From Nereocystis luetkeana (taxonomy: Eukaryota; Sar; Phaeophyceae; Laminariales; Laminariaceae): a stretch of DNA of 64,000 nucleotides. The translations under genes were made by a program, and so were the position numbers. Where the stretch lies: contig JARUPZ010000005.1 of NCBI GenBank assembly GCA_031213475.1, positions 8,118,988-8,182,987 on the forward strand, written 5' to 3'. The notes beneath the pieces were generated by a model, which saw nothing but the letters and a program-made list of their open reading frames with translations, was not told the DNA's origin and searched no databases. Below, one piece after another: positions 1,508-63,060 of this stretch (within the stretch, counting starts at the first letter, position 1; the number at the start of each line of letters is the position of its first letter).

Positions 1508-1622
1508 ATTAGGGGGGACCATAGTAAATAGGACCAAATTGGTAGCGGAAATAACGAAATATATACCAGGTAGTTTTTTTTGTGTGTACCGTAGGTCCTA
1601 TTTAATATGGTTCCCTGTAATA
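1508..1622. mobile_element. MITE-1 copy with CCAGGTA insertion
   Basis: Foldback element of the GGGGGACCATAGT family (consensus about 107 bp, inverted ends ACGGGGGACC). This copy belongs to a subfamily with GTGTGTACCGTAGG in its right half. Compared with the copy at 29287 it holds 7 extra bases, CCAGGTA, at a TA near 1563. It lies just upstream of the first visible CAS exon. Confidence 0.85.
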
Positions 1623-1714
1623 GTCTACGAAATAGCTTTAGTTTTTACCATCGTTTTTTAACGTTTCATACAATACTCATGCTGCATGCGCACGCACACG
1701 CCGGCGTTCCGCAG

Positions 1715-4700
1715 ATGCTACAATGCGACGACGGTCACTGGTCGGGCGACTACGGAGGACCCTTGTTCCTGATGCCCGGCATGATAATCGCCTTCTACGT
1801 CACCGGAACTCCCTTGGGGGAGTCGAGGAGGGGGGGCATGGAGGCGTATCTGCGCAACCACCAGCAGGTTGGTCGCTTGCCGCTGCTCGAGGTTGGCGGA
1901 TCGCGCGTTGTTTGTGCGTGCGTCTTGTTTTTTTTCATGGTTTTTGTTTTGTTTTAATTACATCGTGTGTGTTTTTTTTCGTACGTTCATTTTTGCGCTA
2001 TTGCTGTTTTTTATTACGTTTTGTTGTTGTTTTTTTGTGAGTTCATTTTTGCAGTTTTAATGTTACGGGGGAACGTGTTGATACATTATGGTCAGAACCA
2101 AATTTGCTAGGTAAACATAGGGGGATACGTGTTTTTTTGGGTACATAGTGGGTGTTGAATACTACAGATGTACCTGGTATTAATAGTAAGTAGTCTAAGG
2201 GGGTCAGTCTGGCTTCCTTAGTGTAGTTCTGTGTTAGCGGCAGTGCTCGACTTTGCGAGCTGGATGAGTGGTCAGATAAAAGTCGTGTGTCGCACGTGTT
2301 CTGCAAATCCTCGCGAAAGGATAAGGGATAAGCGTGCTAATGGACCGGCCAGTGGCCCACCCACCCAGCTGATAGTTGGCGCTGGAGGGTATTCAATATT
2401 TTCCGGCTTTCCGATTTTCTACTTTGATTTCGATTTCATAATTTTCATTTTCCTCGGTTTTTGATTCTGCGATACAGTATTCGACATTCGCTCTTCTTCT
2501 ACGTGTCTACTGAGTTCGATATTTTGTTGCTATAGTTTCATCCTCGGTCTTTTTATTCGATGTTCGACCTTCAATTTCCAGTTCCGGTTTTTCAAAGTTG
2601 AAAACAAGAGTTTATTTTTTCAAATTTTCAGATTGCCGGACGTTCCTTTAATTTTTTCAATCTTCCGTTTTCTATTTTCCAATATTTTTATCTTTCGATG
2701 TTTGGCAGGCGGACGGCGGGTGGGGCACGCACATCGAGTGCGCGTCGACCATGTTCGGCACCATCCTGTCGTACATCTCCCTCCGTCTGCTGGGCGTGCC
2801 CGTCGAGGACCCAGCTTGCGCCAAGGGGCTGGCTTTCGTGCGTGAAAACGGCGGAGGCGTGATGGCGCCCAGCTGGGCCAAGTTTTGGATGGCCGTGCTC
2901 GGCGTTTACGAGTGGGAGGTAAGGGAGCAAAAACAGTTAGCAAGATTTGCCGTCTCGAAGAATGGGTAAATACGTTTTCCTTGCGAGGCCGACGGGATAC
3001 CCATGGCTCCCTTTTCGTCGTTTGTGGGAGGCGAGGAACGGTGGGGGGGGGGGGAGGGGGTGGGGGGTACTCATTATCATGCATGTCCGTTGTCGCATGA
3101 CCATAGACCCTCGCATCCCTACAATGCCGGGACGGAGCACGTCGAAATTTCGCGCGGGGGGTGTACTCATGCCATGCATGCTCGCACGAGTAGTCGTACG
3201 AACGTGAGGGATAGGGAGGGGGGGGGTCTTGTTGTACGAGGCCAGGAAGGGGGAGGCCGGGGGGGGGTCTTGTCCTACGAATGAAATACTGTAGGTCAAC
3301 AAGTCAACCGCTACGCTTGCGCATCGTTCATGGCGAGATCGGACTACGGACGAGCCGATAAGGACACCGGTACGACAATATCGCTCATTGTTGTATAATA
3401 TACTACACCATAAGAAGGTACAAAAGGAACGGTCCCGCACCCAGAAGACTGTATGCGGCCAACCGAGACAGCCCTTTTAGGAGTGGTGTTTTCGCACGGC
3501 CCACAAAGGCGTGGCTTCACGGTCCGGTCGGGTGAGCAAACTCACGCGCCCCCGACGTAACAGCAGTTTGGTCTGCCGTTGCCAGTTGTCACGGAAGCGG
3601 CGGGTTCGATGGACGCACGACACGTTTTATTCGTATGGAGAAGTGTGCCAAGCTTAACCCGGTTAGGACTAGACTCCCGTTGTGAAGACGGTTGGGGGGG
3701 AAAATTCGTGGAATTTGAGTCAGGTACAGGTTTCTGAACAGCAGGGCAGTAAGTACGAAGAAGAGTTGGGCTTTATTTTTTGCTATTTGCGTGTTTGCCT
3801 TCTAGGGGTAGCTGCTAATTTTCCCGAGGTTCCTCACTCCCATACAGACTATATACTGTTGCGGGGGACCATAGTTAATAGGACCAAATATTGTTAGTGA
3901 ACATGGTTAAGTATATACCTGGTAGGTTTTTATGTTATACCATAGGTCCTATCAACTATGGTCCCCCGTAATATATGGATAGGTCCATCACGACTAATAA
4001 TTGTAAAACACGATTGCCGTTCCAACCATAGAGGGTTAATAAGGAGCCCAGTCAGTCACAACCATTTTAGCCAATGAAAGGTACAGTAGTGTACTGCTAT
4101 TGTAGCACGCGCCCTTTATACCTAGCATGTAGCAGTGTGGTCAGCTTAAGCTGTAGTCTTCATTGAACCTAACCAATCCGCCGGAGGATAGAGAAAACAC
4201 ACAGACAGACACGCAGAGGGACAGTCGCCAGCGCTACGCCCCCCCCCCTCCCCTCCCCTCGTAATTCTCCCTGTACGCATCATTTCTATTGTTCATGCAT
4301 ACCCAGTAGTCATGTTCACATTTTTACATCTTAGTTGCCTATGTTTGGGTTTGTCAACTCTCTGCTCTCGTTTTTGGGTATTGTTATCGCTCTTTTGTTT
4401 AATGTTTTTTCTTGTGTTTGTTCTCTGTGGTCCTCTTGTCCTTCCTTGTTCCTGTTCTTGCTCTTGTTCCTGCTCTTCTTTCAAGCACGGTTTACTGTAC
4501 AGCAGTGCTTCGTCCTATAGTACTGTTTTGCTCCTCGCCGTGCTTTGCTTCCTCTTCCTTTTCTTCCCGTGCGGGCATGGTGCAGGGCATCAACTCCGTC
4601 CCCGCGGAGCTGTGGCTGCTGCCGAGGTGGTTCCCGTTCCACCCCTGGCGCATGTGGTGCCACTCAAGGATGGTCTACCTGCCCATGAGCTACCTCTACA

Positions 4701-61000: not shown

Positions 61001-61639
61001 TCCCAGGGAATCATACGCCCCCTCCTGCTGCGCCTGCTCGGTCTGCTCTGCTTGTGTGAGCCGGCCGGAGGTGTTTTCGCAGTTGAGTCAGTTGATCGCA
61101 TCGCCTCGATTAAACCTACCATGCTGCCTGAGACAAGGTCTCGAGGGGGGTAAGTAAGAAAGTAGCTAAAGTCAGCAAGGAGTCAAGTCTGCATACTTTA
61201 CTGTGGATAAACGTGAAAGCCGGGAGTAACAAATACTGGCAAAACTGTATTGAAATGGTGCTATTATTCAAATCCCCCCGAATTTTCCCCAAATTATAAT
61301 TTCAAGCACGTTGCTGCAACACGTCTACAAACACATTGACAACTGCGTAGATACATACCTGGTACAACATAGACCAGAGTAGGTTTGAGGATAATGGGCG
61401 GTGGCAGTGGGTTTGCTTCTTGGGCTCGGTCGCAGCATGGCGGTTCTGATCGACCTGATTTTTAAGCGGCCAATTTTAACCGCGGGAATGTCCCCGAGCT
61501 GCTCATGCACGAGGACGCCAATACGAAGCGGCCTGAAATTAGCTCACATCCTCAACGGGGCGACGCTCGGCTTTCTCTCCACGGTGAAGACCCTCTCGAT
61601 CGGGAGGCGTAGATTCCAGCCTACGCTGCCGTAATGAGT

Positions 61640-63060
61640 ACGGGATCTCCCCGTTTTGCGCGGCCGCACTCATGGGGAATCTGGAAGTCTTGAGAACTGT
61701 GAGTAAACTCGTACTGTAGTGAGAATTCTCGTGGAGCACGGAGTGGGTGTCGATGAGTTTGGCCACGCCAGGGATACGGTTTTGCTCAACGCCGTGATCC
61801 ACCGCCGGGCAGACCTGCTGCATACGTCATCGATGTACTCCCCTCTGCGAAAGCCGATATCAACGCTTGAACGACCCAGCGCTTGACGCCCATGCACTTG
61901 ACGATCTATCGGCCGGAATCCGGCGACGCCGCGAGCATCTTCCTGCGTCGCGGAGTGGCCGAGGATGCGGTCGACAGCGACGGAAGCTCAGCCTTCCACG
62001 TTGCGGCTCAACGCGGCCATCTTGTCGCCACGCGCGCTCCTGGTGGCCGGAGCGGATGCCACCCTCCGCATATATGGCGCCCTCAAAAGTGCGCCGCTGC
62101 ACAAGGCCACCTACGACGGCTGGGTCGAGGTGGTCAGAGATACCGCTTGGTACGGCGTGAACTTGGACACCGCCGATGCCTGAGGCATGACTGGAATGCG
62201 CCACGCCCCGTGGCAGAACAAGGCGGGCGTCGTGGACGCCCTCGTCGAAGCCGGAGCTAATGCCACTGTGGAGCGACTCGGCCGCGGTCTACCTGGCTCC
62301 TCTGCACCCTTCAATATATCTCCGTTCAGGCCACGCGGACCTTCCTGAAGCATAGGATCGCCGCCGGAGTGTCGTGAAGAGATGGAACCAACCGAAATCC
62401 GAGACCCATGCTCCACTTGCTGGCTCGAAGAGGCGGCCGGGATCGCGCGACTGAGATGGCGGACCTCCTCCTGAGGTGGGGTGCTGACGAGTCCGAAATG
62501 GGTCGCCACGGCCTAACCGCTGCCGAGATAGTCGGCACCAACTGGTAACCACGAGATGACCTTGAGGCGATCAGCTCAGGAATCTACACATAATGGCGCC
62601 TCGACACCGATGCCAACCGCGTGCGCGAGATGCTGACGAACGCTCCCGCCCCTGGCGTCGCGGCAAATTGCTGCTCCTGTGCCCCGCTCACAACCAAACA
62701 ACAAGGAGAAGCAGTGCGAGTTGGCGGGAGGGGAAGGGGAAAGGGGCGCTTGCGAACGGCGGTGGGGGCGGTGGTCGTGATGGTAGCGTCGTCCCTTCAC
62801 GCGTTGGTGTGGGGGTGTCAGAGGGGACAGCTGGGTGTAGCAAGTCTAAGAAAGCCCTGTCCAAGTCGACGATCGGGGGGCAAGGTCCAGTGGCGACAGC
62901 AGCGGCGGCAGCGACAGCAGAAACAACGCCTGCAGTGAGGATGGCGGCGCGGGGGCGGCGGAAGACAGAGTCGGCGATTTTCACGGCGTCGTGGCGTCAC
63001 TCCTGGAGTTCAAGGACGAAGGCTCCTTCCAGAAGATCATGATGTACCAGGTATCTGTGA
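61640..63060 (+). pseudogene. Ankyrin-repeat gene relic B
   Basis: Degenerate ankyrin units on the + strand: TPMHLTIYRPESGDAASIFL and SSAFHVAAQRGHL near 61880-62030, then after a frame change LLVAGADATLRIYGALKSA and APLHKATYDGWVEVVRDTAW up to a stop at 62181, then VVDALVEAGANATV near 62230. A C-terminal region near 62610 reads VREMLTNAP, and a neighbouring frame reads RPWRRGKLLLLCPAHN, the counterpart of a basic segment in relic A. It ends with DFHGVVASLLEFKDEGSF near 62975-63030, the same C-terminal box as A and C, followed by a stop. Several frame changes and stops make it a likely pseudogene. It lies between relics A and C, both on the opposite strand. Confidence 0.6.

Follow-up and report, generated by a model that had tools for sequence, protein, structure and literature searches.

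TACCWGGTA, an abundant nine-letter word of the Nereocystis luetkeana genome, as a probable excision footprint of a TA-targeting DNA transposon

The 64,000-nucleotide stretch of Nereocystis luetkeana DNA analysed here ("the window"; G000:C5:8118988-8182987), part of a genome of 465 Mb (465,085,209 bases), contains 23 exact copies of the word TACCWGGTA (W, A or T), 14 reading TACCAGGTA and nine reading TACCTGGTA. The expected number is 0.47, and the maximum in 100 shuffles was 4. A preliminary description of the window had counted about 14 and nine copies against roughly 0.5 by chance, figures with which ours agree, and its 14 listed positions are correct to within 0-10 bases. The sites and related features are listed below by position in the window; "footprint" anticipates the reading argued for in the text, and MITE stands for miniature inverted-repeat transposable element.

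1564..1572, plus strand: footprint TACCAGGTA in a TTACGGGGGACC MITE copy (~1506-1630), with clean empty-site paralogues
2171..2179, plus strand: TACCTGGTA, exact match; no clean empty-site paralogue in the sample described below
3916..3924, plus strand: footprint TACCTGGTA in a MITE copy (~3857-3978), with clean empty-site paralogues
12037..12045, plus strand: TACCAGGTA in a MITE-like copy (~11992-12112) whose left half is not alignable to the MITE
12074..12083, plus strand: TACCAGGGTA, an extended footprint with six letters of the element end in place of five, where a MITE copy has its GGTCC/TA/TTAA site
13615..13623, plus strand: TACCTGGTA with CCAGG directly before it (partial double)
14814..14822, plus strand: TACCTGGTA, exact match
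14843..14851, plus strand: TACCAGGTA, exact match
20158..20166, plus strand: TACCAGGTA, exact match
20291..20299, plus strand: TACCAGGTA, followed by CCAGGTG (decayed double)
21204..21212, plus strand: TACCAGGTA, exact match
26352..26360, plus strand: footprint TACCAGGTA in a MITE copy (~26268-26390), at the site counted genome-wide (place C5:8145334)
28659..28667, plus strand: TACCAGGTA, exact match
32975..32983, plus strand: TACCAGGTA, exact match
34300..34308, plus strand: TACCAGGTA, exact match
40987..40995, plus strand: TACCAGGTA, exact match
41090..41098, plus strand: TACCAGGTA, exact match
41104..41112, plus strand: TACCTGGTA, exact match
44401..44409, plus strand: TACCTGGTA, exact match
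45525..45533, plus strand: TACCTGGTA, exact match
45584..45592, plus strand: TACCAGGTA, exact match
53861..53869, plus strand: TACCTGGTA, exact match
61356..61364, plus strand: TACCTGGTA, exact match
63045..63053, plus strand: TACCAGGTA, exact match
15872..16217, no strand assigned: second decayed relative of the source family, ~346 bp, inverted ends (6/21 and 5/21 mismatches), CGGGT/ACCCG arrays
57983..58163, no strand assigned: decayed source-family copy, ~181 bp, both inverted ends resembling TACCAGGGCTTTTCACGGGTC, inner GGGTC/GACCC repeats

The preliminary description proposed a genome-wide count of 9-mers against a Markov background; a ranking of the window's 9-mers against such a background and a genome-wide count of the word both support the enrichment. 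Among the window's 9-mers seen at least eight times (words of period five or less excluded), TACCWGGTA ranks first by log-likelihood against an order-3 model, with 23 seen and 0.35 expected. The whole genome holds 182,395 copies, compared with 1,744 of a reversed-pattern control. More detailed analyses were made on a sample of 315,559 bases, made up of the window with 100 kb of sequence beyond it, a 100-kb part of contig C1 and 13 smaller C1 pieces; it contains 137 copies, where an order-3 model predicts 1.65 and an order-4 model 2.62. The density of one site per 2.3 kb in the sample is slightly inflated, because the smaller C1 pieces were chosen for holding a site. The sequence has a GC content of 52%, with CTG and poly-G runs, features that would suggest a brown alga.

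Judged from aligned repeat copies, TACCWGGTA is an exact insertion of CCWGGTA at a TA. Within the window, copies of a MITE family of ~110 bp carry TACCWGGTA precisely where other copies read TA. In the sample, a paralogue spans the site for 59 of the 137 copies. When one unit, or several in tandem, is treated as a chain (127 chains), 48 chains have a spanning paralogue and, under a stricter rule, 19 have a clean paralogue lacking exactly the insert; three of these 19 lie in the window (1564, 3916 and 26352). At control TA-N5-TA sites, a clean empty paralogue was found for 8 of 996 (290 spanning), and for six of those eight a genuine site is only 7 bp away. A census in which repeat copies were compared for indels yielded 16 clean ones of 7 bp, eight of which are CCWGGTA; a repeated TA is present in 8/16. 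At a single locus, different copies read TA, TACCAGGTA and TACCAGGTACCAGGTA.

The MITE allows the same comparison across the whole genome. Its 16-nt site CATAGTTAATAGGACC, which one MITE can hold once per arm, occurs empty at 23,206 places (control 0) and with exactly 7 additional bp, giving TACCWGGTA, at 471 places (control 0), so that 2.0% of exact MITE sites are filled. At a further 41 places TACCWGG is not followed by TA: 20 read TACCWGGGT, 15 TACCWGGAC and six otherwise, with a central A in 19/20 and 14/15 of the first two classes. At one of them (L061) an element starts with TACCAGGGCTTTTC and runs on as TACCAGGGCTTTTCGCGGGTCAGGTCAAACC, which is non-MITE sequence, while two others (L062 and L060) are longer footprints (TACCAGGGTA and TACCTGGGGTA, respectively) followed by MITE sequence; the form in L062 is also that of window 12074..12083. 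The TACCWGGAC places may represent trimmed scars, with TACCA abutting GGACC of the MITE, or else a single such scar that was copied. The A in 19/20 TACCWGGGT would fit letters derived from one element end, but since 14/15 TACCWGGAC also have A, descent by MITE copying could explain both. The empty, footprint and full states that the preliminary description had expected to alternate between strains are thus represented at an identical MITE site by 23,206 places, 471 places and one element start, here compared between paralogous copies within this genome in place of strains.

The MITE itself measures ~96-112 bp, has ends like TTACGGGGGACCATAGTTAATAGGACC and TA flanks, and is present in the window at 3857, 11907, 12322, 12665, 17390, 20410, 26268 and 46339; its core gave no match in IMG/VR. 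A different repeat, which contains CCATGTCTCCTACCAGGTA (in the C1:200001-300000 sample and other C1 pieces), carries the footprint in 7/7 compared copies, so that this repeat seems to have multiplied an old footprint along with itself.

A transposon with matching ends was predicted in the preliminary description as a TA-flanked element beginning CCAGG or CCTGG that would cut with a 5-nt stagger. Sequence matches indicate that such a family exists, with ends TA|CCAGGGCTTTTC(A/G)CGGGTC. Its 21-nt end TACCAGGGCTTTTCACGGGTC, the first five letters of which are CCAGG, has 1,996 genome-wide matches at up to three mismatches (control 4), and there are 106 perfect copies of the 14-nt end TACCWGGGCTTTTC (control 11). 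Of these, 100 were listed by place, 47 of them with their letters, and 46 of the 47 have a central A, as a real element end should. All three pairs of listed ends closer than 40 kb face inward, where 0.03 would be expected within 5 kb, and TA stands outside both ends in all three:

C12:2849848-2850761: inward pair of perfect ends, 914 bp
C32:1718082-1718978: inward pair of perfect ends, 897 bp
C8:7949349-7953577: inward pair of perfect ends, 4,229 bp

An element end is also present in the sample at C5:8199157, and three sample copies combine both inverted ends with inner GGGTC/GACCC repeats (window 57983-58163, window 15872-16217 and C5:8198983-8199157). The first of them has 5/21 mismatches at each end and aligns with the better kept third. 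The terminal inverted repeats are thus perfect in the inward pairs and decayed at both ends of the three sample copies. With short copies (175, 181 and 346 bp), inverted ends and 1,996 end matches, the family has the features of a MITE, the lack of a transposase being judged by length alone.

Several other sources were considered. Very short elements of the form TACCWGG-V-N10-39-B-CCWGGTA (26-55 bp with the two TAs included) number 349, compared with 404 for the control, and so show no excess, and inverted-end pairs of TACCWGG words gave nothing convincing in window or sample. Repeats starting TACCAGGGACATCGAT and TACCAGGCAGGAG recur inside long repeat units resembling coding sequence, the TACCTGGCCACT repeat belongs to a larger repeat, and a pogo element lying next to two CCAGG words turned out to end in CAG.

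Profile searches of the genome for a transposase gave mixed results. DDE_3 had no match at E ≤0.001, and Transposase_1 had none, control genomes likewise giving none; DDE_1 had 45 matches and DDE_Tnp_4 had 69. The smallest distance between a DDE_1 match and a listed perfect end is 21 kb, as computed for 39 of the 45 matches and 100 of the 106 ends (of the remaining six matches, five lie on contigs where no end is listed, and the sixth is next to a match included in the computation), and the 561-base stretches beyond six DDE_1 matches (L053-L058) hold no element end. The L054 stretch contains a further MITE copy with TACCTGGTA. Some of these six matches look like exons followed by introns. At E ≤10, DDE_3 gave 30 matches, among them ten intact open frames (437-515 aa) that share one score and show a gap of ~240 bp within the domain match; these recall transposases with a long D-E spacer, as described for Sailor (near 82 aa) in the portion of PMC8533490 used here, and showed no link to CCAGG ends in these searches:

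split-DDE_3 frames at C19:5057279, C7:5298669, C10:3953657, C10:11481129 and C13:369043
split-DDE_3 frames at C15:8602628, C2:6046457, C18:2776764, C30:2039450 and C1354:19190

A TA-flanked pogo-like element of ~2.6 kb at C1:12363653-12366260 (L051, L052) has inverted ends CAGTGGGGGGCCCTATATAGTGCAGG and carries a DDE_1 / HTH_Tnp_Tc5 reading frame. The word TACWGTA is over-represented in the 315-kb sample, window included (121 vs ~46 expected). Pogo-like elements ending in CAG could have left it as their scar, but 5-bp indels that repeat a TA are rare in the census (1/16).

The flanks of the footprints suggest how targets are chosen. Across 208 half-sites, taken from 104 single sites whose flanks are distinct, A is avoided directly beside the TA (+1; 0.06 vs 0.18 expected), A or T is preferred at +3, T makes up 0.50 at +6 (0.26 expected; chi2 70), and A or T makes up 0.86 at +7 (0.52 expected; chi2 101). 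The preference is alike on both sides of the TA, and such symmetry is what a transposase dimer acting on TA would leave. Distinct flanks are found in 113/127 chains. Tandem doubles make up 10/127 chains, although only 0.9% of TAs are filled. Read outward, the footprint's own CCWGGTA fits the half-site YNWNNTW, and consequently new insertions could land beside old footprints and give rise to tandem doubles.

From these observations, TACCWGGTA is very probably the footprint that a cut-and-paste DNA transposon family, targeting TA and with ends TA|CCAGGGCTTTTC(A/G)CGGGTC, leaves on excision; the biochemistry of excision and the nature of the transposase are inferred. The element would insert at a TA and duplicate it. 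Upon excision, the transposase would cut the non-transferred strand at a position 5 nt within the element at either end, so that each flank would keep a CCAGG 3' overhang, the 3' polarity being adopted by analogy from what the consulted part of PMC7827188 states for Sleeping Beauty. The overhangs could then anneal through C-G, C-G, an A.A mismatch, G-C and G-C, after which end joining would seal the flanks and the mismatch would be fixed to A or T, yielding TA-CCWGG-TA. With lengths of 175 and 181 bp, the short copies in the sample resemble MITEs that a putative autonomous element would mobilise in trans.

The forms of the scar can be compared with this scheme. A W centre together with scarce blunt forms is what two annealed CCAGG overhangs predict; in the sample, the annealed 5-nt form occurs 137 times (2.4 expected), and blunt joins of 3, 4 and 5 letters occur 1, 0 and 0 times. 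The six-letter form TACCAGGGTA/TACCCTGGTA is found four times (0.5 expected; wrong-centre control 0). Also raised are TACCGGTA (11 vs 4.2 expected), TACCAGTA/TACTGGTA (21 vs 11) and TACCATA/TATGGTA (68 vs 34), which may include trimmed scars or other repeats.

The sample has 143 words with one mismatch, whereas 46 would be expected under the order-3 model and 56 under order 4. Assuming steady input and the order-3 figure, the active period would correspond to ~0.24 substitutions per site, and ~41% of all scars would remain perfect, so that the total would be perhaps 450,000 scars; these are rough figures bound to the model.

A number of observations weigh against an origin by excision. Footprints outnumber recognisable ends by ~90 to 1, so that a long or very efficient turnover is needed. 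No transposase gene was linked to the CCAGG ends by these profile searches, and DDE_1, DDE_3, Transposase_1 and DDE_Tnp_4 found nothing inside the 4,229-bp C8 pair. The three whole copies have decayed ends (5+5, 6+5 and 7+1 mismatches of 21), and at up to seven mismatches the end matches the sample 46 times forward and 39 times in a reversed control; single matches of this kind are thus no evidence, and pairing and inner repeats carry the weight. At the MITE site, filled places may descend from one another, so the 471 do not stand for as many events; A:T is uneven, at 30:70, among the first 100 footprints of the listing. Five of the 41 MITE half-sites without TA were examined, and they comprise one element, two longer footprints and two unclear cases, the element (L061) being known from its outer side alone. 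The uniformity of the footprint is unusual, as perfect scars were found in just 8/94 putative excisions in rice according to an excerpt of PMC4423477. Finally, every test rests on paralogues within one genome.

The numerical excess of footprints over ends could be explained if the 7-bp unit were inserted directly, by aborted tip transposition or repair with a tip fragment, with no full element ever present. The tandem doubles in 10/127 chains would also suit this possibility. However, elements with the same five end letters are found at TA, one of them at a footprint-bearing MITE position, a W centre with few blunt forms is what the annealing of two CCAGG overhangs would give, and the very short elements show no excess over their control; direct insertion is therefore considered unlikely. 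The same excess could arise if CCAGG-ended elements of the germline were excised in the sequenced tissue, the assembly then representing joined somatic sequence. Ciliates are reported to eliminate transposon-derived DNA genome-wide. Against such programmed elimination, footprint ages are scattered (143 one-mismatch words vs 46 expected), some footprints are common to repeat copies and hence inherited, and ~2,000 element ends are still in the assembly, which makes it more doubtful still.

The remaining two explanations dispense with a transposon. If TACCWGGTA were ancestral, 7-bp deletions between its two flanking TAs would yield an identical indel, but the MITE site is empty at 23,206 and filled at only 471 places, flanks are distinct in 113/127 chains, and such an indel accompanies only 8/996 other TA-N5-TA sites, leaving this order of events barely credible. 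CCWGG is a known bacterial methylation and restriction site, and its near-palindromic form could point to a selected host motif, such as a regulatory palindrome or a methylation or restriction-like site. A host motif would hardly be expected, though, to appear as an exact 7-bp insertion at TA within MITEs and other repeats, with a symmetric, insertion-type flank preference and with a transposon family possessing that very end; it is just as improbable.

Further features of the window concern other sequences. Positions 5925-6735 hold a 381-nt inverted repeat with arms 97% complementary and 49 nt apart, and the reading frame tested there (6335-7096) has no Pfam match. An open frame on the minus strand (60605-61087) has weak ankyrin-repeat matches under the Pfam cut-offs. 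Positions 9523-9947 and 51138-51562 form a 425-nt inverted pair, 94% alike, with shorter matches elsewhere in the window.

Under the excision reading, footprints that are usually known from assays or a few alleles can be studied within a single genome as ~182,000 instances. Since one identical site is found empty, scarred and occupied, the ratio of excisions to surviving copies, the outcome of repair and the choice of target become measurable from sequence alone. Transposon scars may account for many of this lineage's short 7-bp indels (8/16 in the census), which is relevant to marker design and to the reading of gene disruptions. On balance, we lean towards a new transposase lineage with a 5-nt cut, half-sites YNWNNTW that are remade by the scar, ~1,000-2,000 recognisable copies and at least ~180,000 scars (one per 2.5 kb). 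If this is true, excision scars rather than inserted copies are the main transposon trace in a genome.

Among known systems, piggyBac targets TTAA and excises seamlessly, in contrast to the TA target and 5-nt scar described here. In the open-licence literature, neither TACCAGGTA nor TACCTGGTA was found as a whole word, and the parts of it that were searched describe no 5-nt scar of this kind. The pogo element Passer leaves 0-4 bp (PMC9976928, in part). The pogo element of this genome at C1:12363653-12366260 is likewise TA-flanked with inverted ends, and has a DDE_1 transposase; it differs in its ends CAGTGGGGGGCCCTATATAGTGCAGG and, by analogy with Sleeping Beauty, would leave TACWGTA, and none of the 45 DDE_1 matches was found near CCAGG ends. 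Sailor (DD82E), of the IS630-Tc1-mariner group, is reported from 23 stramenopile species with lengths of 1,757-4,441 bp (PMC8533490, sections consulted). Its ends usually begin with GT or CC, and a CC start is found here too; it mostly duplicates TATA, whereas the duplication here is TA, as the 7-bp indel consists of CCWGG plus TA.

A survey of transposable elements in Ectocarpus lists, in the portion used, 17 Mariner-Tc1 families with 11,912 copies, including the 217-bp MITE TcMar-N1_Ec32, which is served by the 4.4-kb TcMar-2_Ec32 (PMC12477816); "footprint" and "excision" appear 0 times in its main text. By size, these two resemble the short copies of 175 and 181 bp and the 4,229-bp pair described here. 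A close parallel is provided by Sleeping Beauty and the Tc1/mariner group, which share with this family the TA target and its duplication, visible here in the 7-bp indel of CCWGG plus TA, as well as inverted ends, end letters between two TAs and an ambiguous centre. Tc1/mariner overhangs are given as 2 or 3 nt and the Sleeping Beauty footprint as C(A/T)GTA (table and excerpts of PMC3878927), with an overhang of three nt for Sleeping Beauty (PMC7827188, excerpt); the five-letter CCWGG scar is longer than these staggered footprints and predicts a transposase with a wider stagger. Because of this departure in length, and with no linked transposase, the element is not filed as a Tc1/mariner member, but a TA-targeting, Tc1/mariner-like mode of action is the best reading of its traces.

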